A stretch of DNA of 57,536 nt, taken from IMG/VR virus record IMGVR_UViG_3300048999_000258, positions 1 to 57,536 of that record. One strand, written 5' to 3'. This document shows positions 2,567-33,320 of this stretch, one piece after another. The notes beneath the pieces are model-generated. The model had not been told where the DNA came from, did no database searches, and saw nothing but the letters and a program-made list of their open reading frames with translations. Position 1 is the first letter of the stretch, and each line of letters begins with the position of its first letter. This DNA comes from a virus. The translations under genes were made by a program, and so were the position numbers.

Positions 2567-3871
2567 ATGGACAACAGTAAGAGACGGCCTCTGGTACGAT
2601 ATAAGCACAAGAGCGCAAAGATGACCGCTTGCACCATCTGCGCATGGCCAATCATTGAACGCGCATCTGTAATTGACGCAGGCGGAACCTTTGTGTGCAA
2701 ACAGAAAAAGTGCTTTGCAGCATATAAGACGCGCGAACATTCTGGCGTTAATCATCCGCGATACCAGCCGCCGGTAAAGTTTAATTGCGCGCACTGCGGC
2801 AAAGAGAACGAACGTCCGCGCGTCTTTGTTGAAGGGCGAGCCAACCCATGCTGCGATAACGTTTGCCGCAGGGCGTTTCAGAAGTCAGGCAAAGTGAAAC
2901 AAGTTCCGGCTAACAGCTTCATGCTGACTGACGGAGCTGTGGCAACCGCTGATAAAGTAGCAGCTATGGTGGCGGATAAAAAATCGGGCAAAACGATATG
3001 TGATGAACTCGGCATTACCAAGGGCGCATTAGTGGCATGCCTGAAGCATCACAACTTGAAGATAGAGCGCAACCTTTCCCCCAAGACGGGGAAAGATAGC
3101 CCCAAGTGGGTCGGCGAGGTGGCGTGCGCTTGTCACCACTGCGGAACAGTGCGCATGCGCAAGCCGTATGACATCAAGGGCAAGGAGCGCGTCTACTGTG
3201 ATGAGAAGTGTCAGCATGAGTATCTTAAGACGCTGAAGGGGCCTTTGAGCGGACGCTATATAGAGCCGAACAAGCTTACTTGCCACGGCTGCGGGGTGGT
3301 GTATGATGAGCCGAAAAGCTTGCACCCAGGTGAAAAAAGCAAATTTCACAATCGCAAATGTTACACAGCTTGGGCAAAAAAACAGTTCGGACCTCTTCAT
3401 CACCGATGGGTCGGGATCGGCAAATACCGTGGTGACAATTGGATTATGCAACGATTTGCTGCGGCTCAACGAGACAAGGGAATTTGTCAGCTTTGTAATA
3501 AGAAGGTAGGGTTAAATAAGGTGGACGTTCACCACATACGGCCTTTCAAATACTTCGCAAAGGAACGCAATTTTGAAGATGCGAATGCGTTATCCAACCT
3601 CGTGTGTTTTTGCAAAAGCTGCCACATGGAGGTCGAAGGACGCACGGATGCGGCAACAATTGATACATGGCGTGAACATTATGAAATCAACCGTCTTTAT
3701 CCAAGAAAGGCCACAGGACAGCTTGTAAGAAAAAATCAACGGATGGTGCTGGACTTGTACGCCAAGGGCGTGACGAAGGCATCTATACATCGTCAAACGA
3801 AGTTAAGCAGAGCGGTAATCAACGCGTGCATAGATGGACCGAGAAAGAGGCGTATGTCTACGCCTAAGTAA
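2567..3871 (+). CDS. HNH endonuclease with multiple zinc-finger motifs
   Basis: A 434-aa protein. The N-terminal 280 residues hold about four Cys-pair motifs (CTICAW...CKQKKC; CAHCG...CCDNVC; CACHHCG...CDEKC; CHGCG...HNRKC), each like a treble-clef or zinc-ribbon knuckle. Residues about 305-360 are an HNH domain: CQLC, then VDVHHIRPF, then a run of Asn/Asp and CKSCH. A basic helical C-terminus (KGVTKASIHRQTKLSRAVI) looks like a helix-turn-helix. An SD AGGAG precedes the ATG. Free-standing HNH enzymes of this sort in phages are usually homing endonucleases, and this one sits beside the capsid gene. The specific target is unknown. Confidence 0.85.
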   Translation: MDNSKRRPLVRYKHKSAKMTACTICAWPIIERASVIDAGGTFVCKQKKCFAAYKTREHSGVNHPRYQPPVKFNCAHCGKENERPRVFVEGRANPCCDNVCRRAFQKSGKVKQVPANSFMLTDGAVATADKVAAMVADKKSGKTICDELGITKGALVACLKHHNLKIERNLSPKTGKDSPKWVGEVACACHHCGTVRMRKPYDIKGKERVYCDEKCQHEYLKTLKGPLSGRYIEPNKLTCHGCGVVYDEPKSLHPGEKSKFHNRKCYTAWAKKQFGPLHHRWVGIGKYRGDNWIMQRFAAAQRDKGICQLCNKKVGLNKVDVHHIRPFKYFAKERNFEDANALSNLVCFCKSCHMEVEGRTDAATIDTWREHYEINRLYPRKATGQLVRKNQRMVLDLYAKGVTKASIHRQTKLSRAVINACIDGPRKRRMSTPK

Positions 3872-7715: not shown

Positions 7716-7922
7716 CTATCGCTTTATGCGGATAACGTGGCTATGGGTGGGCGCAAGCGGCACCTGGTCAGACAGCTGTAGCGGCAGCGTCACATCTGCC
7801 TTACACCAATAGCAACGGCTTTGGCAGCGCTCACCGTCAAAGATGACCGGCCCGTCGGTCCGTATCCGCGTCTGTGAGCCGCTCTTCTGTAGCAGCTTTT
7901 CTCTGCAATGGGGGCACTTCAT
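7716..7922 (-). CDS. Small zinc-ribbon protein
   Basis: A 68-aa protein with two Cys pairs, CPHC near the N-terminus and CQSRCYWC in the middle, likely to bind one zinc ion. Its ATG overlaps the stop of the upstream minor head protein gene by 4 bases (ATGA), so it is probably translated by coupling. Function unknown. It is somewhat reminiscent of the Com-type zinc-finger proteins of Mu-like phages, but the match is not firm. About 230 bases without a gene separate it from the protease. Confidence 0.6.
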   Translation of the reverse strand: MKCPHCREKLLQKSGSQTRIRTDGPVIFDGERCQSRCYWCKADVTLPLQLSDQVPLAPTHSHVIRIKR

Positions 7923-10864
7923 GTGACTGGCTCGCGTTTTGGCTTGGCTTTGGTTTCAAGTATTTCGGCCACCTGCGCGTCAGCGGGCTTGTTTGCGTCG
8001 TCGCGCTTATCACCTAGACCATAAAAAGCAGCCGCGTTATCCGCGCCCACTTTGGCAAGCTTGGCCGCCGCGTCGTTTGCATCCTCGCGGTCTTTGATGC
8101 GCTTTTTATTACGCTTAATAATCAGCTTGAGGTCTTTGGCGGGAATAACCGCCGTCGTCACATCTAACTTGCGCGGCGGCATCTGCGGCGTGTTGCGGTA
8201 GATGTCGTTGGCGTCTTTGTCAAAACGCAACGGCGTACTTTGGTCAAAGACACCAGGGTCCTTGAATGCTTCAGTGATGCCCCCGATATCCTGGCGTCTC
8301 TTAGGGACGTTGGGCCGGAAACGCACGCTGTCATCCACGGCGGGGTTGCGGCTGAGCACTAGTTTCTCGTGCTGCACATCCGCCCGTTGCGCGTGTAGTG
8401 CGCTGCGCTCTTGGCCATGCAAGTAGTCCTGGAATGCGCTTAAACCGATGGCGTCCATGCTCTCGATGCCGCCAGCTGGGTAGCAACTTTGATAAGCCAG
8501 GGCCGCATCAAGTGGCTTTGCAAATCCCATAGCCGCAAGGTCCGGGCTCTGTGCGCCGTGCACGATATACACCTCGCCCGCCGTGCCATCAGGCCCTATG
8601 AGCGTGTTAAGATGCAATGCAGGGTGAGGCACGCTGCCTGATGCAATCCATCTGCCCTGTTCACTTTGCTGCGCCCACTTGGCGACATCGACAGGCAGCC
8701 CAAAAGCACTAACCTCGCTGATGCCTTGCTCCATGGCCTTGTACATCATGCTTTTGTGCGCCATCTCTGCCTCGAGGGTTTTCGGGTTCGTTAGGATGCC
8801 CCGCGTGCCAATCATGCTCATCTGATTCTTGTCGTTAAAGCCTGCTCCTTTGGGTATTGCGACCAGGATGCATCGGCAGTTATGCGTGACAAACGTCTCC
8901 GCCACATAGCTCTCATCTTCCTCAACCGTAAGATTATACACCATGCCGCAGTACGGCTTGCGCGCCACCTTGCTTATTACAGCGGCCTGCGCGACATCCT
9001 TGCCATGGGCAATGGGGATACTTTTGGGGCCAGGGTTGCAGGCCAAATCGACATAGACGCCGTGATGCGCCTTCATTTCTACGACAACCAATCCCTCGAC
9101 CAGATAGCGGCCACGTTGGGCGTCACAAGCGCCATCTTGCGCCTCGCCGTGCGTCGGGCGGGACTTGTAGCGCGTCGGCGCAACGGCCTTAACCTGCACC
9201 CAGAGACGGTCGCGGGACTGTTTCATGACAGAGGCATGCCCATTGTCGCGATTGCCAAGATGCTCGGCGTTAGCCGTCATGTCGTGGGCCGAGCCTTGGC
9301 TGCATCCAGCCGCCCGCGCGTCCAGGGCGACCGCGTGTTGCGTGCCGGCCACAAGCCGCTCAAAGCCGATTTGGTCCTGCGCATGCATTTCGACGACGGC
9401 CTCTCGCTGTACGCTATCGCCCGCGACCTCGGCGTCAGCCGCAATCGACTGCGACCAATTTTTCTCCAGGCGGGCAAACGGCCCAGGGGCGCATCGGCTG
9501 CGCAGTTGCTGCGCCATATGAACGCCTACGCGCCTGAAGATGAGACGCTCGCAGGCATCATCAATCCACTGAGCATCCCCCAGGACAAGCGTATCGCCGC
9601 CAGCGATGGACGGCGTAGATGCCCGCGCAAATCGCAGCCTGCCACTTAGTGAGGGCACGCACGGGCCGTCACTAAGCCTGTCCCGGTGGTAGACAAAGCC
9701 TTCGTGCATAAAGACGCCGTCGCCCAGTACAAGCGCTACAAAGGGGCTGTCTGGCCCCTGGCCGTGTAGCACCTGCACGTAGTCTTCGTATTTACTGCCC
9801 AGGTGCGGGTCGTCTTTGACCGAAGGGCGGCTGGTGTCGCGCACGACGTGCTCGCCCGCCTTAAACTCGCCCGCAGCCCGCCAGCTACGGCCATTGTAGA
9901 GCAGGTGATTGGGTGTGACACGCAGGGTCATCCATCCGGAGTCTATTTCGCACAGCTCACCTCTATACGCCTGGCACCATACGTGCGTCACCTTGCGCAG
10001 GCGCTGCTTGTGTGTCCATACGTAGTCGCCAGGATAGACGTGCTCGATGGCCCTTGGCCCAAGGCTCGTGGTAATCATCGTGCCGGGCGGAACGCAGTTC
10101 GGATGTAGCGGGCCCGCCGTCGCCATATACTCGTTCGCCTTGCGGCCCTGATTGGTGCCCGTGGCCTGCAAGGCAGATAGCTTGAAGATACGCGGTGCAC
10201 CGTCTGGCCCCGTGTAGATGGCCGAGCATGGGTCACAGCAGTGTGGTGCACTTCGCTTAGCGACCAGGGCATCTGGCCCATTTTGCTCAGATATGGCCCG
10301 AGCCTGCCCCAGCTGCATGGCGGTCTGCGTCTCTGTCACTGCAATCCGATTAAGGTCGCGCGTCCAATCGCCCGTGGCGTGGCCCAAATCGCTTTTGAGC
10401 TGTTTGATGCTCTGGCGCTTGGCGATGTTTTGCGCAGTCTTATCCCGGATGACCGCCTCAAACTTGCGCCGCAACTCTGCGTCCGCCTCAATAAGAATTT
10501 GCCCGGTGGCCTTATCAAGCTTGTTGCCAAGGCCCTGGCACAAAGCGCCCGCCTGCTGGGATGCTAGCGTCACGGCGTGCTGTTCGGCGGATGTCAGCGG
10601 TTGCGGATTGGTTTTGACGTACGCTTTGAACTGCGGGTAGGTCATCTTGTCTGCCGCAGACTGTCCGAGAATTTGCACAATGCGCCCGTACACGTAGGCG
10701 TCCTGCAGCGTGCTGATGTCGACGTCAACTAGGCCCTTGTCTTTGAGCGCCTGTAGGATTTGTGGCGCCACGGCCTGCGGGCCATACTGGCTGACGGCGA
10801 AGGCATTGTGACGGTCCAGGATGATTTGGCGGATTTCCTGAAGCTGCTTAGCGGTCAAAAGCAT
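7919..10864 (-). CDS. MuF/SPP1-gp7-like minor head protein interrupted by an intein
   Basis: A 981-aa precursor. The extein (about 575 aa after splicing) has the minor head protein plan: an N-terminal helical region, the ITVTETQ-type segment (RIAVTETQTAMQ, about 173-184), a Cys-rich site (HCCDPC, about 208-213) and the end motif HPNCRC. The intein enters exactly in HPN|C, so C257 is intein residue 1 and the extein resumes as CRCILVAIP. After splicing, about 320 residues remain as a basic, low-complexity C-terminal extension. SD GAGGG lies upstream of the ATG. The protein likely sits at the portal and is injected or structural. Neighbouring genes are head genes. Confidence 0.85.
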   Translation of the reverse strand: MLLTAKQLQEIRQIILDRHNAFAVSQYGPQAVAPQILQALKDKGLVDVDISTLQDAYVYGRIVQILGQSAADKMTYPQFKAYVKTNPQPLTSAEQHAVTLASQQAGALCQGLGNKLDKATGQILIEADAELRRKFEAVIRDKTAQNIAKRQSIKQLKSDLGHATGDWTRDLNRIAVTETQTAMQLGQARAISEQNGPDALVAKRSAPHCCDPCSAIYTGPDGAPRIFKLSALQATGTNQGRKANEYMATAGPLHPNCVPPGTMITTSLGPRAIEHVYPGDYVWTHKQRLRKVTHVWCQAYRGELCEIDSGWMTLRVTPNHLLYNGRSWRAAGEFKAGEHVVRDTSRPSVKDDPHLGSKYEDYVQVLHGQGPDSPFVALVLGDGVFMHEGFVYHRDRLSDGPCVPSLSGRLRFARASTPSIAGGDTLVLGDAQWIDDACERLIFRRVGVHMAQQLRSRCAPGPFARLEKNWSQSIAADAEVAGDSVQREAVVEMHAQDQIGFERLVAGTQHAVALDARAAGCSQGSAHDMTANAEHLGNRDNGHASVMKQSRDRLWVQVKAVAPTRYKSRPTHGEAQDGACDAQRGRYLVEGLVVVEMKAHHGVYVDLACNPGPKSIPIAHGKDVAQAAVISKVARKPYCGMVYNLTVEEDESYVAETFVTHNCRCILVAIPKGAGFNDKNQMSMIGTRGILTNPKTLEAEMAHKSMMYKAMEQGISEVSAFGLPVDVAKWAQQSEQGRWIASGSVPHPALHLNTLIGPDGTAGEVYIVHGAQSPDLAAMGFAKPLDAALAYQSCYPAGGIESMDAIGLSAFQDYLHGQERSALHAQRADVQHEKLVLSRNPAVDDSVRFRPNVPKRRQDIGGITEAFKDPGVFDQSTPLRFDKDANDIYRNTPQMPPRKLDVTTAVIPAKDLKLIIKRNKKRIKDREDANDAAAKLAKVGADNAAAFYGLGDKRDDANKPADAQVAEILETKAKPKREPVT
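8879..10096 (-). other. Intein within the minor head protein (406 aa)
   Basis: Block A starts with CVPPGTMITTSLG and GDYVWTH; block B is TLRVTPNHLLYNG with the conserved T-x-x-H, followed by FKAGEHVV. The C-terminal blocks are VYNLTVEEDESYVA and FVTHN, followed by the +1 Cys of the extein. All residues expected for Cys1/Asn-final splicing are present. No LAGLIDADG or HNH motif is clear in the roughly 230-residue middle of the minus-strand frame; instead that DNA encodes a helix-turn-helix protein on the plus strand. Coordinates are exact to the codon on the splice-site model. Confidence 0.88.
9005..9649 (+). CDS. Triple helix-turn-helix protein encoded antisense inside the intein
   Basis: The plus-strand frame is open from 8882 to 9649; ATG 9005 (about 214 aa) starts after the DNA for the intein C-terminal blocks. 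It holds three successive HTH-like units: SLDQIAATLGVTSAILRLAV, then MPIVAIAKMLGVSRHVVGR, then SLYAIARDLGVSRNRLRPI, each preceded by a short helix with hydrophobic residues (VMRLHFYDN, VLRMHFDDG). Such arrays bind DNA. Codons line up exactly opposite the intein codons. No nuclease motif is seen and no SD is clear, so expression is inferred from coding character only. It may be the DNA-recognition part of a former homing endonuclease. Confidence 0.6.
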   Translation: MGNGDTFGARVAGQIDIDAVMRLHFYDNQSLDQIAATLGVTSAILRLAVRRAGLVARRRNGLNLHPETVAGLFHDRGMPIVAIAKMLGVSRHVVGRALAASSRPRVQGDRVLRAGHKPLKADLVLRMHFDDGLSLYAIARDLGVSRNRLRPIFLQAGKRPRGASAAQLLRHMNAYAPEDETLAGIINPLSIPQDKRIAASDGRRRCPRKSQPAT

Positions 10865-16086: not shown

Positions 16087-17790
16087 TCAACGCTCCTTGA
16101 GTGTTAGCCGCTGGGCTGCGGGGAGCGCTGGCATGCTGCGCCGTACAAGTTCCAAGGGTATCGCACCTGGGATGGTGAGGCGGCCTAGGCTGCGCTGCAT
16201 CTGCTCTTGCGAGTCTTCATCTTGCTCGGTGTCATCCTTGCCCTGGTCTTGCTTAGACGGGTCTTGGGTGGCAGCAGCAGCGCCAGGCGACATACCGCCT
16301 GCGCCGCCGGGCATCTGCGCCATCGCGGCAGCCTGCTTGTTTTGCAGCCAGACTGGATTGAGGATGATGTTGCCCGAATCGTCTGGCAGCGGCGGCAAAT
16401 CTTCTTCAGCGCGAATCTCGTTGACCGTCCAGCTGGTGGCGACGCGCTTTTGATTGAGGTCTGCCAGCTCACCGCGGCTTAGGGCATCAAGGCCTACAAA
16501 CTCAAACTTAAAGTTTTCGTTGATGGGCCAGAGAATGTGCGTGTTGATGCAATGGGCGATATGCGCAAGCAACGGGCGTAGGCCGCGCTCACGGCTCTCG
16601 ATGATTTTGTCTTTGTTGCTGCCCTGGCTGAGCGTTGAGACCTGGCCGGCATTGCCGTAAGGGTGGCCAATCTCGTCGGGGCTAATGCAGTACACAGAGC
16701 AGGTGCATTTAATCAGCAGGTCTATCCATTGCTGAAAGCCCATCTCAGTGTTGGATTGCTGCATATTAATCCACTCAATGCCCGCTTCAGCATTGGTGAT
16801 GGGCGTGCGCCAGGCGTTCTCAACACCAGACAGCATGGCGTACCACTGCGACTTAAAGCGGTTGAGCATCTTCTCGCTCATACCCGCCTTGATGTTGATG
16901 AGGCCCTTGGGTGCGCTGTTCTGAATGAAGTAGCGGCTGTTGTATTCAAAGCCGTTGACCAGGTTTGTGATGGTCTCGACCAGCAGCTCTAACTCGCTTG
17001 TGCCGTAGCCCTGCAGGCGGATGTCCGTCGACGGGTTGCGCACGCCGTAGCACATCTCATCGGCGGTAAATTCCTCCACGATGGTGCCGTCATAGATTTG
17101 CACGTAGGCCGTCTCGCGGCTGACCGCAGCGTCGTCTGAGCTGTTGCGAATGCTCTCGGCCAGGCGGATGGTTGAGGCGTCCACGGCGTAAAACTCTGCC
17201 GGCTGACCCTTTTTGTTGGGCACAATTTCTGTGGCGTGGGCGTCAAATGTCAGCGTGTCAGAGGTAATCTTGCGCAGGTAGGTGGAGAAATTGTCCCGTC
17301 TGCGCGGGTTTTGTGTCAGGCCCGTACGGCTAAAGAACGTCTCCATAGCCTGCACAAACTTGCGGTCCTCTTTAGATAGCTTGTCGTTGCGGTCGCGCAG
17401 CCTAATGGCAAAGCCATTTCCAAAGCGGTTCGCCTGCGGGTGTGCGAACTGCGCCACCTGATTGATGCGCGTCTGGTGCACGGCGCCGACGATAGGCGTG
17501 CGAAACTTGACGCCCTTGAGGATATCGTAGCTTAGCGGTGAGGGGCGCTCACGATAGCCCATTTGCCCCAAGACCTGATATGGGTCCCATTGCAAAGCCT
17601 TTGGGTCTTCAGTAGCAGGCAGCGTCGGCGCAGGTGCGTTGTTGGACGTATCCTGCTGGTTGCCACCAGGGCCTGCGCGGTTGTTATCTGCGCCGCCATC
17701 GTCACGGCCTTCTGCGCGCGACAAGGCCTCTAGGCCGCCGCTTGCCGCGCCTCGCATGAAATCCGCAGCTGATTTAAAAAACGAAGGCAT
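16087..17790 (-). CDS. Portal protein
   Basis: A 567-aa protein typical of portal proteins of large myoviruses. After a polar linker rich in Gly/Asn (residues about 20-65) come PYQVLGQMGYRERPSPLSYD, a core with FAVDAST-like (FYAVDASTIRLAE) and LELLVETITNLVNG segments, the conserved ISPDEIGHPYGNAGQ, and a C-terminal Gln/Asp-rich tail. The SD AAGGGA precedes the ATG. It forms the dodecameric ring at one head vertex through which the terminase packages DNA. Gene order terminase, portal, minor head, protease, scaffold and capsid supports the call. Confidence 0.85.
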   Translation of the reverse strand: MPSFFKSAADFMRGAASGGLEALSRAEGRDDGGADNNRAGPGGNQQDTSNNAPAPTLPATEDPKALQWDPYQVLGQMGYRERPSPLSYDILKGVKFRTPIVGAVHQTRINQVAQFAHPQANRFGNGFAIRLRDRNDKLSKEDRKFVQAMETFFSRTGLTQNPRRRDNFSTYLRKITSDTLTFDAHATEIVPNKKGQPAEFYAVDASTIRLAESIRNSSDDAAVSRETAYVQIYDGTIVEEFTADEMCYGVRNPSTDIRLQGYGTSELELLVETITNLVNGFEYNSRYFIQNSAPKGLINIKAGMSEKMLNRFKSQWYAMLSGVENAWRTPITNAEAGIEWINMQQSNTEMGFQQWIDLLIKCTCSVYCISPDEIGHPYGNAGQVSTLSQGSNKDKIIESRERGLRPLLAHIAHCINTHILWPINENFKFEFVGLDALSRGELADLNQKRVATSWTVNEIRAEEDLPPLPDDSGNIILNPVWLQNKQAAAMAQMPGGAGGMSPGAAAATQDPSKQDQGKDDTEQDEDSQEQMQRSLGRLTIPGAIPLELVRRSMPALPAAQRLTLKER

Positions 17791-28646: not shown

Positions 28647-28671
28647 TACCTCCCGGCCCTAAAGGGCCAGG
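28647..28671. repeat. Subterminal palindrome, right end of tnpB-only element
   Basis: A 25-base sequence containing the palindrome GGCCCT-AA-AGGGCC, identical to the copy at 29767-29791 near the left end. On the minus strand it would form the hairpin at the 3' end of the tnpB-associated RNA. Confidence 0.75.
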
Positions 28672-29702
28672 ATTCCCTCTACAGGACGCTCGCATCCGAG
28701 CGCGAGAATGTTGCGGGCCGCGTTAATATCACGGTCGTGTCCCTGTCCACAATTACTGCAGACCCATTCCCTTATTCCAAGCTGCGCGATACCTCTCGGC
28801 CTCGACTCGGGCAGGCTGCCACAAGCCGAACACAACTGGGACGAATATGCTTCGTTGACTTCTCGGTATGTTACGCCTTTCGCAATCGACTTGTAGCGCA
28901 ACATATTCTTTAGCAGACCCCACCCAGCATCGTAGACGGACTTTGCCATCTTTGTTTTGCCTAGGTTTTTGCTGCTGACGTCACCAACGACCACCACTTG
29001 ATTGTCTCGCACAAGCTGGGTGGACAGCTTATGCAGGCCGTCTAAACGGCGGTTCTTAGCTTTGGCGTGCAGCGCTTTGACCCGCTTTTTTTTGTGGGCG
29101 CGCTGCGCTTTGCCGAGCGACTCCTCGACTGCGCGGTAGGCACGCAGGCCATCATATTTTTGGCCGTCAGACATCGTGGCTGTTGTTTTAAGCCCTAAAT
29201 CGATGCCGACTTGTTTGTCCGGGCAGACCCAAGCAAAACTTACATCAACGCACAAGTTAATGTACCAGTGACCACGAGCGTCCTGGGAAAACGACCCGCA
29301 TTTGATTTTGCCAAAGACTGGCCGACTCAGCCACACACGGTAGACGTGTCCGCGAAACTTAAAGCCATCGTCAAGTTGCCTGATGCCACGAGCTTTGAAC
29401 GGCACCCATCCAAGTGCTCGTTTGCCGCGGTAGCGAAGCCAGCGCTTCTTGTGCTGAATGCGCGACTGCGCGTACTGTTCACAAACGGCTTGAATTGTCT
29501 CAGCGCCGAGATCCATTTCTTCGCAGCCGCCACTGGCCAAATTGTTGAGGTCAAACGCACGGAGCCACGGCCGACCATTGCGCACGGCCTGGCGCTGCAG
29601 GTCATTGCACCAGTTGAAAACTTGATTTACATCGAAAGCAGCTTTTTCCAGTTTTTTGCGGCTGGCTTTGCCTTTGACGCGATATCGTAAAACCTGCAAC
29701 AT
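28659..29702 (-). CDS. tnpB: TnpB, RNA-guided nuclease family (IS200/IS605)
   Basis: A 347-aa protein. It has the TnpB order: an N-terminal wedge-like region, then RuvC-I with VGIDLGLKTT, RuvC-II region VVVVGDVSSKNLGKTKMAKS, a zinc ribbon CSACG...CSNCG and RuvC-III HDRDINAARN. Where most TnpBs have Glu in V.xEDL, this has Gly (VVGDV). A glutamate is present in REVNEAYSSQ just before the zinc ribbon, a possible relocated catalytic residue. Ends a short distance before the right-end palindrome. Confidence 0.85.
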   Translation of the reverse strand: MLQVLRYRVKGKASRKKLEKAAFDVNQVFNWCNDLQRQAVRNGRPWLRAFDLNNLASGGCEEMDLGAETIQAVCEQYAQSRIQHKKRWLRYRGKRALGWVPFKARGIRQLDDGFKFRGHVYRVWLSRPVFGKIKCGSFSQDARGHWYINLCVDVSFAWVCPDKQVGIDLGLKTTATMSDGQKYDGLRAYRAVEESLGKAQRAHKKKRVKALHAKAKNRRLDGLHKLSTQLVRDNQVVVVGDVSSKNLGKTKMAKSVYDAGWGLLKNMLRYKSIAKGVTYREVNEAYSSQLCSACGSLPESRPRGIAQLGIREWVCSNCGQGHDRDINAARNILALGCERPVEGILAL

Positions 29703-29766
29703 GCCCTGACATACACCGGAGGTCTGACAAATGGCTAGCTATTGTACGGGCTTCGCCCGTGCCCTC

Positions 29767-29791
29767 TACCTCCCGGCCCTAAAGGGCCAGG
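29767..29791. repeat. Subterminal palindrome, left end of tnpB-only element
   Basis: Identical over 25 bases to the copy at 28647-28671. A second small palindrome, GTACGGGC-TTC-GCCCGTGC, lies just before it at about 29753-29770 on the side of tnpB. Confidence 0.7.
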
Positions 29792-29807
29792 TTTCACGGG
29801 CTTTTGG

Positions 29808-29939
29808 ATGAATCTTAACCTCAGCTATTGGGACGCCAAAACGTTGCATGAGGCACTGACCAAGGCATTGGAAGCTCCTGGTCCGAAAGGTGAGACGTCT
29901 TACTTGAAATTCGGCGACGACGAAAACACGACTACTTAA
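29808..29939 (+). CDS. Hypothetical 43-aa protein
   Basis: A short ORF between the two insertion elements (ATG 29808), helical in the middle (WDAKTLHEALTKALEAPG). No clear SD; upstream sequence was probably replaced by the insertion. It may be the remains of a gene or a leftover 3' part. About 70 bases without a gene follow before the next element. Confidence 0.3.
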   Translation: MNLNLSYWDAKTLHEALTKALEAPGPKGETSYLKFGDDENTTT

Positions 29940-30016
29940 GCGCAACACTCATCAAGGAAGGTTAGATATTGATACCTCTCGGCTTCTGGCCTGATGCAGA
30001 CACCTACATTTGACTA

Positions 30017-30042
30017 CTCCCCACGGCTGAAGCCGGGGGATT
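30017..30042. repeat. Right-end imperfect palindrome of IS200/IS605 element
   Basis: CTCCCCACGGCT-GA-AGCCGGGGG hairpin followed by ATT. It matches the palindrome at 31537-31562 in layout and many positions, as expected for the subterminal hairpins recognised by a Y1 transposase. Confidence 0.7.
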
Positions 30043-30055
30043 CCCCGGAGTCCGC

Positions 30056-31108
30056 TCATGATTGGGCTCCTGCTTCCAGGCTCTCTAGTCCGAGAGCGGC
30101 AATATATTTCGCAGCGTTGATGTCACGGTCGTGAAAGATCCCGCATGAACACTGCCATTGCCTTACGCCAAGACCTGCGAAACCTTTCGGCCCCTCTCTG
30201 CTAAAGCAAAGAGAACAGGTCTGGGTTGAATATGCCTCGTTGACCTCTAAATACACAACTCGATGCCTTTTGGCTTTATACGCGAGCTGTGTTCTCAACG
30301 ATGACCAGCCAGCATCAAGTACGGATTTCGCCATACTCGTTTTTGCTAAGCCGCTCGCGTTGACGTTGCCAACAAATACAGCTTCGTGCGATTGCACTAA
30401 CTGTGTCGAAAGTTTGTGAAGATGGTCATGGCGCTGCGCTTTGACCTTTGCATGTATTTTCTTGACTTGTCTCTTCTTATGCGCTCTTTGCGCGATGCCT
30501 AGGCGCGCTTCTGCTGCACGATAAAGGCGTGGATGAGAAATCTTCTGACCTTCGCTCGTCACCGCTAAATCTTTTAAACCGAGGTCAATACCAACAACGC
30601 CCTTTCCTGTGCCCTGCGCTTCTTCGATGTTGACTGGCAAGTTGATGTACCAACGTCCGCGACTATCTTGGGTAAAAGACCCAGCACAAAAAGTTTGACC
30701 ATCTTGCAATTTGCGACTGACCCACGCTTTGTATTTCCTGCCCCGGAAGGTAAAAACGCCATTTCTGTAGACGACATGCCCCTTATTAAAAGGTACCCAT
30801 CCGAGAGAGCGCTTTGACGACTTAGGATTCGACACGCGCCAGCGTAGCCAAGGCTTATTTTTTGCTGAGCGGCTTTTGTCGTATACCTGGCAAACCTGTT
30901 GTATGGTATGTGCGTGTACATCGAGTTCTTTGCTGCTGCCTGCCGTTAATTTTTGCAAGTCATGCCAAGAAAGCCATCGACGTCTTGATTTGACAGCTTT
31001 CTGCTGCGTTTCGTTACAATAATTCCAAATAAAATTGACGACCTTTGATTGGCGTACAAGTTCGCTATCGCACGTATCCCTCAATCTGAACCTAAAAGTT
31101 ATTTGCAT
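30056..31108 (-). CDS. tnpB: TnpB, RNA-guided nuclease family (IS200/IS605)
   Basis: A 350-aa relative of the TnpB at 28659-29702. It has RuvC-I VGIDLGLKDLA, RuvC-II region AVFVGNVNASGLAKTSMAKS, zinc ribbon CSLC...CSCG and RuvC-III HDRDINAAKY. As in its neighbour, Gly replaces the usual RuvC-II Glu, and LEVNEAYSTQ supplies an alternative Glu. Its start overlaps the end of tnpA by 10 bases. The two proteins are clearly related but diverged throughout, so they came from separate insertions rather than a recent duplication. Confidence 0.85.
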   Translation of the reverse strand: MQITFRFRLRDTCDSELVRQSKVVNFIWNYCNETQQKAVKSRRRWLSWHDLQKLTAGSSKELDVHAHTIQQVCQVYDKSRSAKNKPWLRWRVSNPKSSKRSLGWVPFNKGHVVYRNGVFTFRGRKYKAWVSRKLQDGQTFCAGSFTQDSRGRWYINLPVNIEEAQGTGKGVVGIDLGLKDLAVTSEGQKISHPRLYRAAEARLGIAQRAHKKRQVKKIHAKVKAQRHDHLHKLSTQLVQSHEAVFVGNVNASGLAKTSMAKSVLDAGWSSLRTQLAYKAKRHRVVYLEVNEAYSTQTCSLCFSREGPKGFAGLGVRQWQCSCGIFHDRDINAAKYIAALGLESLEAGAQS

Positions 31109-31491
31109 TTTTGTTGCTCTATGTACTTCTTAACAACTGCGAGCGGCGCACCACCGACTGTTGCTACGAAATAACTGTTTGTCCAGAGAGTGGGTACACG
31201 GGTTTTTAGCAGTCTAAATTCTGCCCGTAAAAGTCGCGAAGACCTACCTTTAATTGCTTTTACCAAGCGATGGATCCCGAACTGCGGGTCGCAGTCCACG
31301 AGCAAATGAAAGTGGTCTCCATCAGCTTCCATCTCAGCAATTGTTGCTTTTTTCTCAAATGCCACCTGACTGGCTATTTCTTTGAGCCGCCGCTCGACGC
31401 CGTCGAAAGACAGAAGCTTGCGCCTATACTTGACGCACCATACGACATGGTAGGTGCATCTGTAGACGACGTTGAGATTAGAGCGAATCAT
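31099..31491 (-). CDS. tnpA: TnpA, Y1 (HUH) transposase of IS200/IS605
   Basis: A 130-aa protein, the normal length. The HUH motif is HFHLLVDC (His-Phe-His), preceded by EMEADGD; the catalytic Tyr is in VVKKYIEQQ near the C-terminus; VVWCVKYRR near the N-terminus is also typical. ATG 31491 was chosen; the frame is open further to 31539. It cuts and joins single-stranded element ends and may mobilise the neighbouring tnpB-only element too. Confidence 0.88.
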   Translation of the reverse strand: MIRSNLNVVYRCTYHVVWCVKYRRKLLSFDGVERRLKEIASQVAFEKKATIAEMEADGDHFHLLVDCDPQFGIHRLVKAIKGRSSRLLRAEFRLLKTRVPTLWTNSYFVATVGGAPLAVVKKYIEQQKCK

Positions 31492-31536
31492 AGAGCTGTT
31501 ATACAGGCCTGCGCAAAATAAAGCAACACCTAGGCT

Positions 31537-31562
31537 CACCCCATAGCTAAAGCTAGGGGATT
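31537..31562. repeat. Left-end imperfect palindrome of IS200/IS605 element
   Basis: CACCCCATAGCT-AA-AGCTAGGGG hairpin followed by ATT; partner of the palindrome at 30017-30042. Confidence 0.7.
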
Positions 31563-31691
31563 GCGCCTAGCAGATGTTCAGTCAAGCGACTTTTTGTGCC
31601 AGACGGTGAAGCCCACTGAGGCGTATATTTGACCCCCTGTTCAGCTTAGCCCACAATCCCGGGTATTAGTCCTATTCCGGGGGTTTTGCCT

Positions 31692-33320
31692 ATGAAAGCC
31701 ACGCTGTCTCACATCGGTGCCACGCTCTTGTCGCTGGTCACCAGTTGCGGCCACATCTCCGACGTCAACGTCACCGCAGGCGCCACAGAGCCCGCAGAAG
31801 CCGCTGATGGATCAGAGACAGGTGAAACCTTTACCCTTGGCGTAGCGCTGCATTTTCGCAACGAGGGCGCTCTCGACGCCTTGCTTGTCCGTCTTTACGA
31901 CCCCAAAAGCCCCGACTACGGCAAGTTTCTCACCCCTGATGAGTTCCAGACGCAATTTGGCCCCAAGCCCGAAGCCGTGGCCCGCGTGCGGCGCCATCTT
32001 GGTAGTCATGGCATGAGCGTGGCTGAAGCACCCCATGGCCAGTTCATCAAAGCCCGCGCCACCAAGGCACAGGCCGAGGCGGCATTTAAGACCACCGTCG
32101 TGGCTCACACTGCCCATGATGGGCGCAAAGAACGAGGCCTTGTGACAGCACCGAAGCTGCCCGCAGGCATCGCCGCCGTGCACAACCTCAAAACCCCGCC
32201 GCGCCGCCATCCGCAGATGCGCCGTGTCAGCGCCAACCCTGAGCCTTCAAACGTAGCGCCGCTTTCGGCCAAAGACATCCGCACCGTCTACAACGTGCCA
32301 GCGAACGTCAATTCCAAAGACCGCTACCTTGCCCTAGTCGAGCTAGACGGCTACGACCCCGCAGACGTCAAGGCCTACGCCAAGGCCAACAACATGGCCC
32401 TGCCGCCCATTACCAACGTCCTCGTCTCAGGCTTTGATGGCAATGTCATAGACCCTGATGCCCAGGTTGAGGTGACGATGGACATTGAGGTGATGGCGGC
32501 GATGGCCGGGCAGGCCAAAGAAATCCTCGTGTATGAGACAAGCCAGCAGCAGGGCACCTTGCTGGGCCTGTTTAACGAAATCGCCAACCCCAGCTTGGGC
32601 GCCAAGAAAATGCCGCACGTCATCAGCTGCTCTTGGGGCGCGCCTGAGGGCGAGATGACAGCCAGCGACGCCAAAGCTGAGGCCATGGTGTTCAAGCAGA
32701 TGGCGGCCCAAGGCCAGACGGTGTTTGCTGCCTCAGGCGATTCGGGCGCCAATGACGACGGCCATACGCTAGGCACCGACGACCCAGCCAGCCAGCCCTA
32801 CGTGGTCGCTGTCGGCGGCACGACGCTGAGCAGCCACGCTGGCGCATACATCTCTGAAAGCGCCTGGTACGACGGCCAGGGCGGCGGAGGCGGCGGCGTC
32901 TCTCGTTTTTGGTCTATGCCCATCTGGCAGCAAGGTATTGCTGGCACGGCAAGCAAAGCGTCACTTAGCAAGCGCAACGTGCCAGACGTCGCACTCAATG
33001 CTGACCCGCAGACAGGCTACAACGTCTACGTCTCAGGGCAGTGGATGACTGTCGGCGGCACCAGCTGCGCGGCACCTATCTGGGCGGCATTTATGGGCAT
33101 CGTCAACACGCAGCGCCTGAGCAAAAAGTTGCCAGACATAGGCTTTTTGTCGCCGACCTTATACCGAATTGGCTCCGGCGTCGGCGGCGCGGCAGCCTTT
33201 CATGACATCGCAGACAACTCTACTAACGGCTATTATCCTGCGGTATCGGGCTTTGATGATGCGACGGGCTGGGGGTCTATGGACGGGGCAAAATTCTTGC
33301 AGCTGTTTACGGCAAAATAG
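31692..33320 (+). CDS. Sedolisin (peptidase family S53) with lipobox signal
   Basis: A 542-aa protein with all features of a complete sedolisin. A short signal ends in the lipobox-like LVTSC (Cys19). A pro-domain spans about 45-165 (GVALHFRNEGALDALL; PDYGKFLTPDEF). The catalytic residues are Glu260 and Asp264 in QVEVTMDIEV, oxyanion Asp350 in AASGDSG, and Ser458 in GGTSCAAP. The calcium site is FHDIAD...GFDDATGWG near the C-terminus. Sedolisins are acid-active serine proteases, usually secreted. Cleavage of the pro-domain is expected. In phages this is uncommon; lysis, envelope or host-surface attack are possible roles. Confidence 0.9.
   Translation: MKATLSHIGATLLSLVTSCGHISDVNVTAGATEPAEAADGSETGETFTLGVALHFRNEGALDALLVRLYDPKSPDYGKFLTPDEFQTQFGPKPEAVARVRRHLGSHGMSVAEAPHGQFIKARATKAQAEAAFKTTVVAHTAHDGRKERGLVTAPKLPAGIAAVHNLKTPPRRHPQMRRVSANPEPSNVAPLSAKDIRTVYNVPANVNSKDRYLALVELDGYDPADVKAYAKANNMALPPITNVLVSGFDGNVIDPDAQVEVTMDIEVMAAMAGQAKEILVYETSQQQGTLLGLFNEIANPSLGAKKMPHVISCSWGAPEGEMTASDAKAEAMVFKQMAAQGQTVFAASGDSGANDDGHTLGTDDPASQPYVVAVGGTTLSSHAGAYISESAWYDGQGGGGGGVSRFWSMPIWQQGIAGTASKASLSKRNVPDVALNADPQTGYNVYVSGQWMTVGGTSCAAPIWAAFMGIVNTQRLSKKLPDIGFLSPTLYRIGSGVGGAAAFHDIADNSTNGYYPAVSGFDDATGWGSMDGAKFLQLFTAK

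Follow-up and report, generated by a model that had tools for sequence, protein, structure and literature searches.

Inteins are usually described as a splicing domain and an endonuclease joined in one polypeptide. Dassa and colleagues reportedly described, in 2009, fractured genes in which a free-standing endonuclease lies between the parts of a split intein. Homing-endonuclease genes in antisense orientation occur in the L2066 group I introns of nuclear ribosomal DNA (PMC9548176), and our search of the literature on antisense homing genes, which left most subscription papers outside its scope, found them in group I introns only and none in inteins. We analysed the DNA of IMG/VR virus record IMGVR_UViG_3300048999_000258 (57,536 nucleotides, called the window at its full length), in which a MuF-type minor head gene on the minus strand contains an intein whose middle region is overlapped, on the plus strand, by an open reading frame (ORF) with three helix-turn-helix (HTH) units. 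This ORF is very likely the surviving DNA-targeting part, made of the three HTH units, of a homing-endonuclease gene set backwards in the MuF intein; its intact relatives, as predicted from their sequences, encode a complete HTH and nuclease protein at the same place and in the same phase. We hold it highly probable that the window copy is a nuclease-less derivative of a widespread class of phage inteins, the ambisense inteins, which would carry an opposite-strand homing gene of at least two origins (PD-(D/E)XK, LAGLIDADG-like and perhaps, at locus L249, HNH), be actively homing and have a sense middle that is a passenger peptide.

Comparison with the bifunctional inteins of the PI-SceI type showed a Hint domain in both, with an endonuclease gene between the N- and C-terminal splicing blocks and with empty sites and signs of homing among the relatives; here, however, the endonuclease is a separate protein of the opposite strand and the sense middle has no recognised domain, so that splicing domain and endonuclease are uncoupled onto opposite strands. 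The group I introns (PMC9548176) likewise have an antisense homing gene inside a self-splicing element, but their sense strand carries no reading frame, because introns need not be translated, whereas in the intein both strands must stay open. As in the fractured genes with split inteins, the endonuclease would be expressed apart from the splicing domain, but the present intein is undivided and is overlapped by the endonuclease gene on the opposite strand. The antisense proteins of the relatives resemble PD-(D/E)XK endonucleases (DUF559/MTES_1575, Vsr-like), from which the window copy differs in having the HTH part only. The same host gene and architecture were found in the GenBank MuF inteins of Barsten, SchottB, Nordenberg, Sitar, Lennon and Thing3 and of Vibrio phages 1.265.O, 1.266.O and 1.082.O. 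The examined GenBank records of Gordonia and Vibrio MuF inteins annotate the sense product only and no antisense gene, which suggests that annotation pipelines may miss antisense genes of inteins.

The MuF intein and its antisense HTH gene

The MuF-type minor head (head morphogenesis) gene is a single unbroken ORF of 981 residues on the minus strand (7919 to 10864), located between the portal gene (16087-17790) and the protease and major head genes. The spliced extein gave weak matches to the head maturation protease, minor head and head morphogenesis families of PHROGs (2e-7 to 7e-4). The intein of 406 residues (8879-10096, minus strand) is in frame with both exteins, starts with Cys1, ends in His-Asn and is followed by Cys at position +1 (junctions HPN/CVPPG...FVTHN/CRC). 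Pfam detected Intein_splicing (3e-9) and Hint_2 (2e-7) in the ORF, and Pfam and the predicted fold both placed the N and C blocks of a Hint fold around the middle region. These blocks lie in one ORF and not in separate frames, as they would in a split or fractured intein.

Prediction of the intein structure by AlphaFold2, with an alignment of 19 rows, gave a predicted local distance difference test score (pLDDT) of 91-98 for the N-terminal splicing segment (residues 1-90; 9827-10096; N profile 9e-33) and of 93-98 for the C-terminal segment (residues 368-406; 8879-8995; C profile 2e-15), and the best PDB matches of these ends were inteins and bacterial intein-like domains. The uninterrupted minus-strand frame with intact splicing blocks that the preliminary description had claimed is thus present. 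Between the segments, the sense strand (8996-9826) has no recognisable domain, and residues 96-367 all scored below 50; neither a Pfam domain nor a confident fold was found there, as a bifunctional homing-endonuclease intein would have. The string FVALVLGDGVF of the sense middle, which resembles LAGLIDADG, was dropped as a candidate, being without Pfam support. The sense middle is a reading shadow of the antisense gene.

On the plus strand, an antisense frame of 255 residues is open from 8882 to 9649. Its first 41 codons (8882-9004) merely mirror the C-terminal region of the intein, and therefore the ATG at 9005 is the likelier start, giving a gene of 214 residues (9005-9649). Three HTH units, already read by eye in the preliminary description, were recovered in it at 9047-9190, 9194-9337 and 9359-9502 by Pfam (Sigma70_r4, 9.8e-11 with three stretches; HTH_23, 2e-9; HTH_38, 4e-7), and the predicted structure of the product consists of three helical HTH units, the first two less certain than the third (pLDDT mostly 84-93). 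A profile of antisense endonucleases matched the gene through its HTH part (1e-13), and the array aligns with the HTH that antisense nucleases have at the corresponding place of related inteins. The plus and minus frames are exactly codon-opposed, as had been claimed, and the locus thereby has what marks the class: between its splicing blocks lies an antisense gene that is codon-opposed and has DNA-binding motifs. The HTH content of the frame is beyond chance. The codons TTA, CTA and TCA, which would stop the intein frame, are absent from the gene where 6.5 were expected (P = 0.001). The GC content by codon position was unusable for telling the strands apart, because opposed frames mirror each other.

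Antisense nuclease genes in related inteins

Relatives were sought by profile in viral contigs and bacterial genomes and kept if both splicing blocks were in one frame, which left 191 distinct inteins. About 19 of them carry an antisense nuclease of the PD-(D/E)XK (DUF559) type with HTH or zinc motifs, five carry an antisense LAGLIDADG-like nuclease, the antisense genes of both kinds being codon-opposed without exception, about 34 have a DUF559 nuclease in the ordinary sense orientation and about 30 are mini-inteins. Long codon-opposed antisense frames are present in the MuF inteins of Gordonia phages Barsten, SchottB and Sitar and of Vibrio phages 1.265.O and 1.266.O, and in the two Vibrio phages they encode a protein with an HTH ahead of a DUF559 PD-(D/E)XK domain (7.7e-13 and 2e-10). 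The LAGLIDADG-like antisense protein of the Gordonia phages matched Pfam weakly (best 0.0015 in L284 and 0.021 in L034); its motif is clear, and it has homologues among the homing endonucleases of phages. Independently of our own profiles, Pfam found DUF559 in 14 of 18 antisense frames of the relatives (best 1.4e-15), while the sense middles of the same set gave Hint and intein domains only and no nuclease. The DUF559 domain of these proteins, which follows HTH or zinc motifs, contains D..(I)E(I/V)DG..H, and the confident antisense genes all include a nuclease. A single-sequence scan with the Vibrio antisense nuclease returned no further loci.

When antisense cases were counted without requiring an open sense frame, 27 were found, the sense frame being unbroken in 25 and interrupted in two (L212 and L249), and the phase was codon-opposed in each of the 25 unbroken cases. 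The preliminary description had named recurrence of the antisense ORF in related MuF inteins as a check, and the ORF does recur, as a class. It had also held that homologues with a broken antisense frame and a sense endonuclease would speak against it; some related inteins are of this kind and another set is the reverse. The trees of the splicing domains (114 rows) and of the nucleases (53 rows) were weakly resolved. The antisense PD-(D/E)XK nucleases fell on one side of a branch with a support of only 45 and may be of one origin, and the antisense LAGLIDADG set is separate, placed among the sense-type inteins.

The exclusive use of the codon-opposed phase agrees with an argument from the genetic code. 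The reverse complements of the stop codons are TTA, CTA and TCA, which encode leucine or serine and all have synonyms; this phase forbids no antisense protein, because stops in the intein arise only from these replaceable codons. In the other two antisense phases a stop spans two neighbouring codons, and certain pairs of residues are thereby forbidden. The three codons were entirely absent from 19 antisense genes, although the codon use of their own phages predicted 13.6 in L006 and 10.9 in L005.

Comparison of substitutions between related inteins showed that they peak at sense codon position 3 in the splicing domains and exteins and at sense position 1, which is antisense position 3, in the middle of the antisense-type inteins. 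For the pair L002/L004, substitutions at sense positions 1, 2 and 3 numbered 48, 13 and 15 in the middle, as against 12, 6 and 23 and 3, 4 and 13 in the splicing parts, and the amino-acid identity of the middle was 0.90 in the antisense frame vs 0.67 in the sense frame. The corresponding counts for the middle were 124, 69 and 89 for L005/L006 and 119, 69 and 72 for L018/L007, and further pairs agreed, whereas the control inteins with a sense nuclease peaked at position 3 throughout, the middle included. As judged from these substitution patterns, selection in the relatives is shown to act on the sense frame where the splicing domains are encoded and, in the middle between them, on the antisense frame. 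The rates by codon position on both strands, which had been proposed as a check, and the excess of antisense over sense identity support, for the relatives, the earlier claim that the need to keep both strands open is a strong constraint. The inteins are a natural example of two proteins encoded codon on codon on both strands, with full overlap over about 200 codons and with selection measurable on each.

Shine-Dalgarno sequences of at least five nucleotides at a suitable ATG were found for 9 of 24 antisense genes and for 21 of 564 control antisense frames (p = 5e-7), examples being L200 (AAGGAGG), L005, L006, L010, L037 and L172. Signs of mobility are present in the Gordonia and Vibrio relatives. 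Intein-less siblings matching both flanks were found in 20-odd Vibrio breoganii phages and many Gordonia phages, with exact empty sites in Vibrio 1.148.O (HPN/CRST, flank identity 92%) and in Gordonia Geodirt (HEVIN/CRCTM, flank identity 96%). The inteins of Barsten and SchottB have no differences although about 400 extein codons differ at 139 positions, those of Sitar, Nordenberg and Thing3 have none among them, and those of Vibrio 1.266.O and 1.082.O have 16 differences in 1020 bp, as against 152 differing positions in about 306 extein codons. Inteins far more alike than their exteins point to recent intein transfer, as homing predicts.

These observations suggest a mechanism in which minus-strand translation would run through the intein without interruption and the intein would then excise itself from the head protein, the insert being removed at the protein level by the Hint domain. 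The plus strand would independently express a separate nuclease; head-gene copies without the intein would be cut by it, and repair of the cut gene would copy the whole intein in. The codon-opposed phase would let any nuclease sequence be encoded with the intein frame open. The endonuclease could in this way be expressed independently of the late head gene, and homing is directly testable in cultured Gordonia and Vibrio phages. Splicing of the precursor, antisense expression and cutting are all inferred.

The window copy and its possible explanations

The tail of the window gene (9503-9652), which occupies the place of the PD-(D/E)XK domain of the relatives, ends in TAG TGA at 9647-9652 and has no detectable domain. 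Loss of the nuclease, with the HTH array still intact, is the likeliest history, because the nuclease domain is undetectable and the frame ends at these two stops; the window copy is therefore probably immobile on its own. A by-eye match of SIPQDKRIAASDG to the AIPERKIAIEIDG motif behind the third HTH unit had been considered as a nuclease remnant and was dropped after a profile test and permutation (p 0.41). No PD-(D/E)XK core with catalytic residues was found in the window, the alignment suggesting at most a residue-poor remnant that is not significant, and the other plus-strand frames of 9490-10000 held no nuclease.

Several results weigh against reading the window gene as a derived homing gene. 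Profiles, permutation and a reading of all plus frames found no nuclease domain in its antisense ORF, in line with the preliminary description, which saw no nuclease motif. The length of the antisense frame alone is not significant, being equalled in 13-16% of synonymous codon shuffles of this GC-rich window (p = 0.13-0.16). Candidate starts of the window ORF have no Shine-Dalgarno site, though several other genes of the phage have one. Searches of viral contigs returned no close relatives of the window ORF, intein or exteins, and the HTH ORF had no match in phage records, so that the evidence of selection comes from the relatives only. The absence of sense stops is also partly ascertainment, most loci having been recognised by their unbroken intein frame, yet the frame is open in 25 of the 27 cases found without that filter.

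An antisense frame open only through GC richness, with spurious HTH matches, would account for the shuffle result, since opposed-frame ORFs of such length are common at this GC content, but it is scarcely credible given three distinct HTH units whose Pfam E-values reach 1e-10 and which align with the HTH of the correspondingly placed antisense nucleases of related inteins. It is very improbable that the antisense gene is real and the sense intein dead, a nuclease gene having entered an already broken gene in reverse orientation. The sense frame is indeed interrupted in two antisense cases, L212 and L249, the latter with an antisense HTH-HNH gene; against this, the sense frame is unbroken in the other 25, the splicing blocks are conserved with position-3 substitutions, the head gene retains its place in the head operon and the splicing domain is predicted at pLDDT above 90.

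The window gene might instead be a functional nuclease-free DNA-binding protein and not a decayed homing gene, either a repressor or a targeting subunit acting with the free-standing HNH endonuclease encoded at 2567-3871 on the plus strand (Pfam HNH, 2e-5; phrog_8446, 3e-16), itself a candidate separate homing gene. Its three HTH units are all still well formed, the gene still avoids the leucine and serine codons that would place a stop in the intein frame, and the HTH array and the HNH protein both match phrog_8446. We consider this unlikely, as the relatives yielded no antisense array lacking a nuclease, the window ORF is without a Shine-Dalgarno site and the confident antisense genes of the relatives all have a nuclease. 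The idea of a recognition subunit for the HNH enzyme, raised in the preliminary description, gained almost no support, the common match to phrog_8446 (HTH-HNH) reflecting a shared HTH type only. That description had left the choice between a new kind of intein-borne gene and a decayed or inverted endonuclease fragment. Each was partly right: antisense homing genes recur in inteins, and the window copy looks like one that is without its nuclease.

Variants of the locus and neighbouring genes

At L249 (2579-3145), an antisense HTH-HNH gene (HNH 1.5e-8) lies between intein halves in different sense frames, and this locus may be a split intein that carries its homing gene in antisense. Both orientations occur side by side at L172 (103-2586), where one MuF-type gene contains two inteins, the first with an antisense zinc-ribbon and DUF559 nuclease and the second with a sense DUF559 nuclease. 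MuF-like inteins at L008, L017, L020, L023, L025, L042 and L050 extend over two reading frames, an N half followed by an ORF in which an HNH endonuclease is fused ahead of the intein C half, and have the look of natural split inteins whose C part bears the nuclease.

The Vibrio inteins L005, L006 and L291 start with Ala (HPN/ACLKG; empty site HPN/CRS), a start that characterises class 2 inteins, whereas those of the window and of Gordonia start with Cys. The intein-containing MuF proteins of L030 and L172 have a C-terminal ADP-ribosyltransferase domain (PF03496).

In the window, the HNH gene at 2567-3871 adjoins the major head gene, and its repeated CxxC zinc-ribbon-like motifs resemble those of the antisense nucleases of L014 and L172. 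Reading by eye also gave a putative IS200/IS605-like group at 28659-31539, with one TnpA-like and two TnpB-like genes, and a putative sedolisin-like pro-peptidase gene at 31686-33320.
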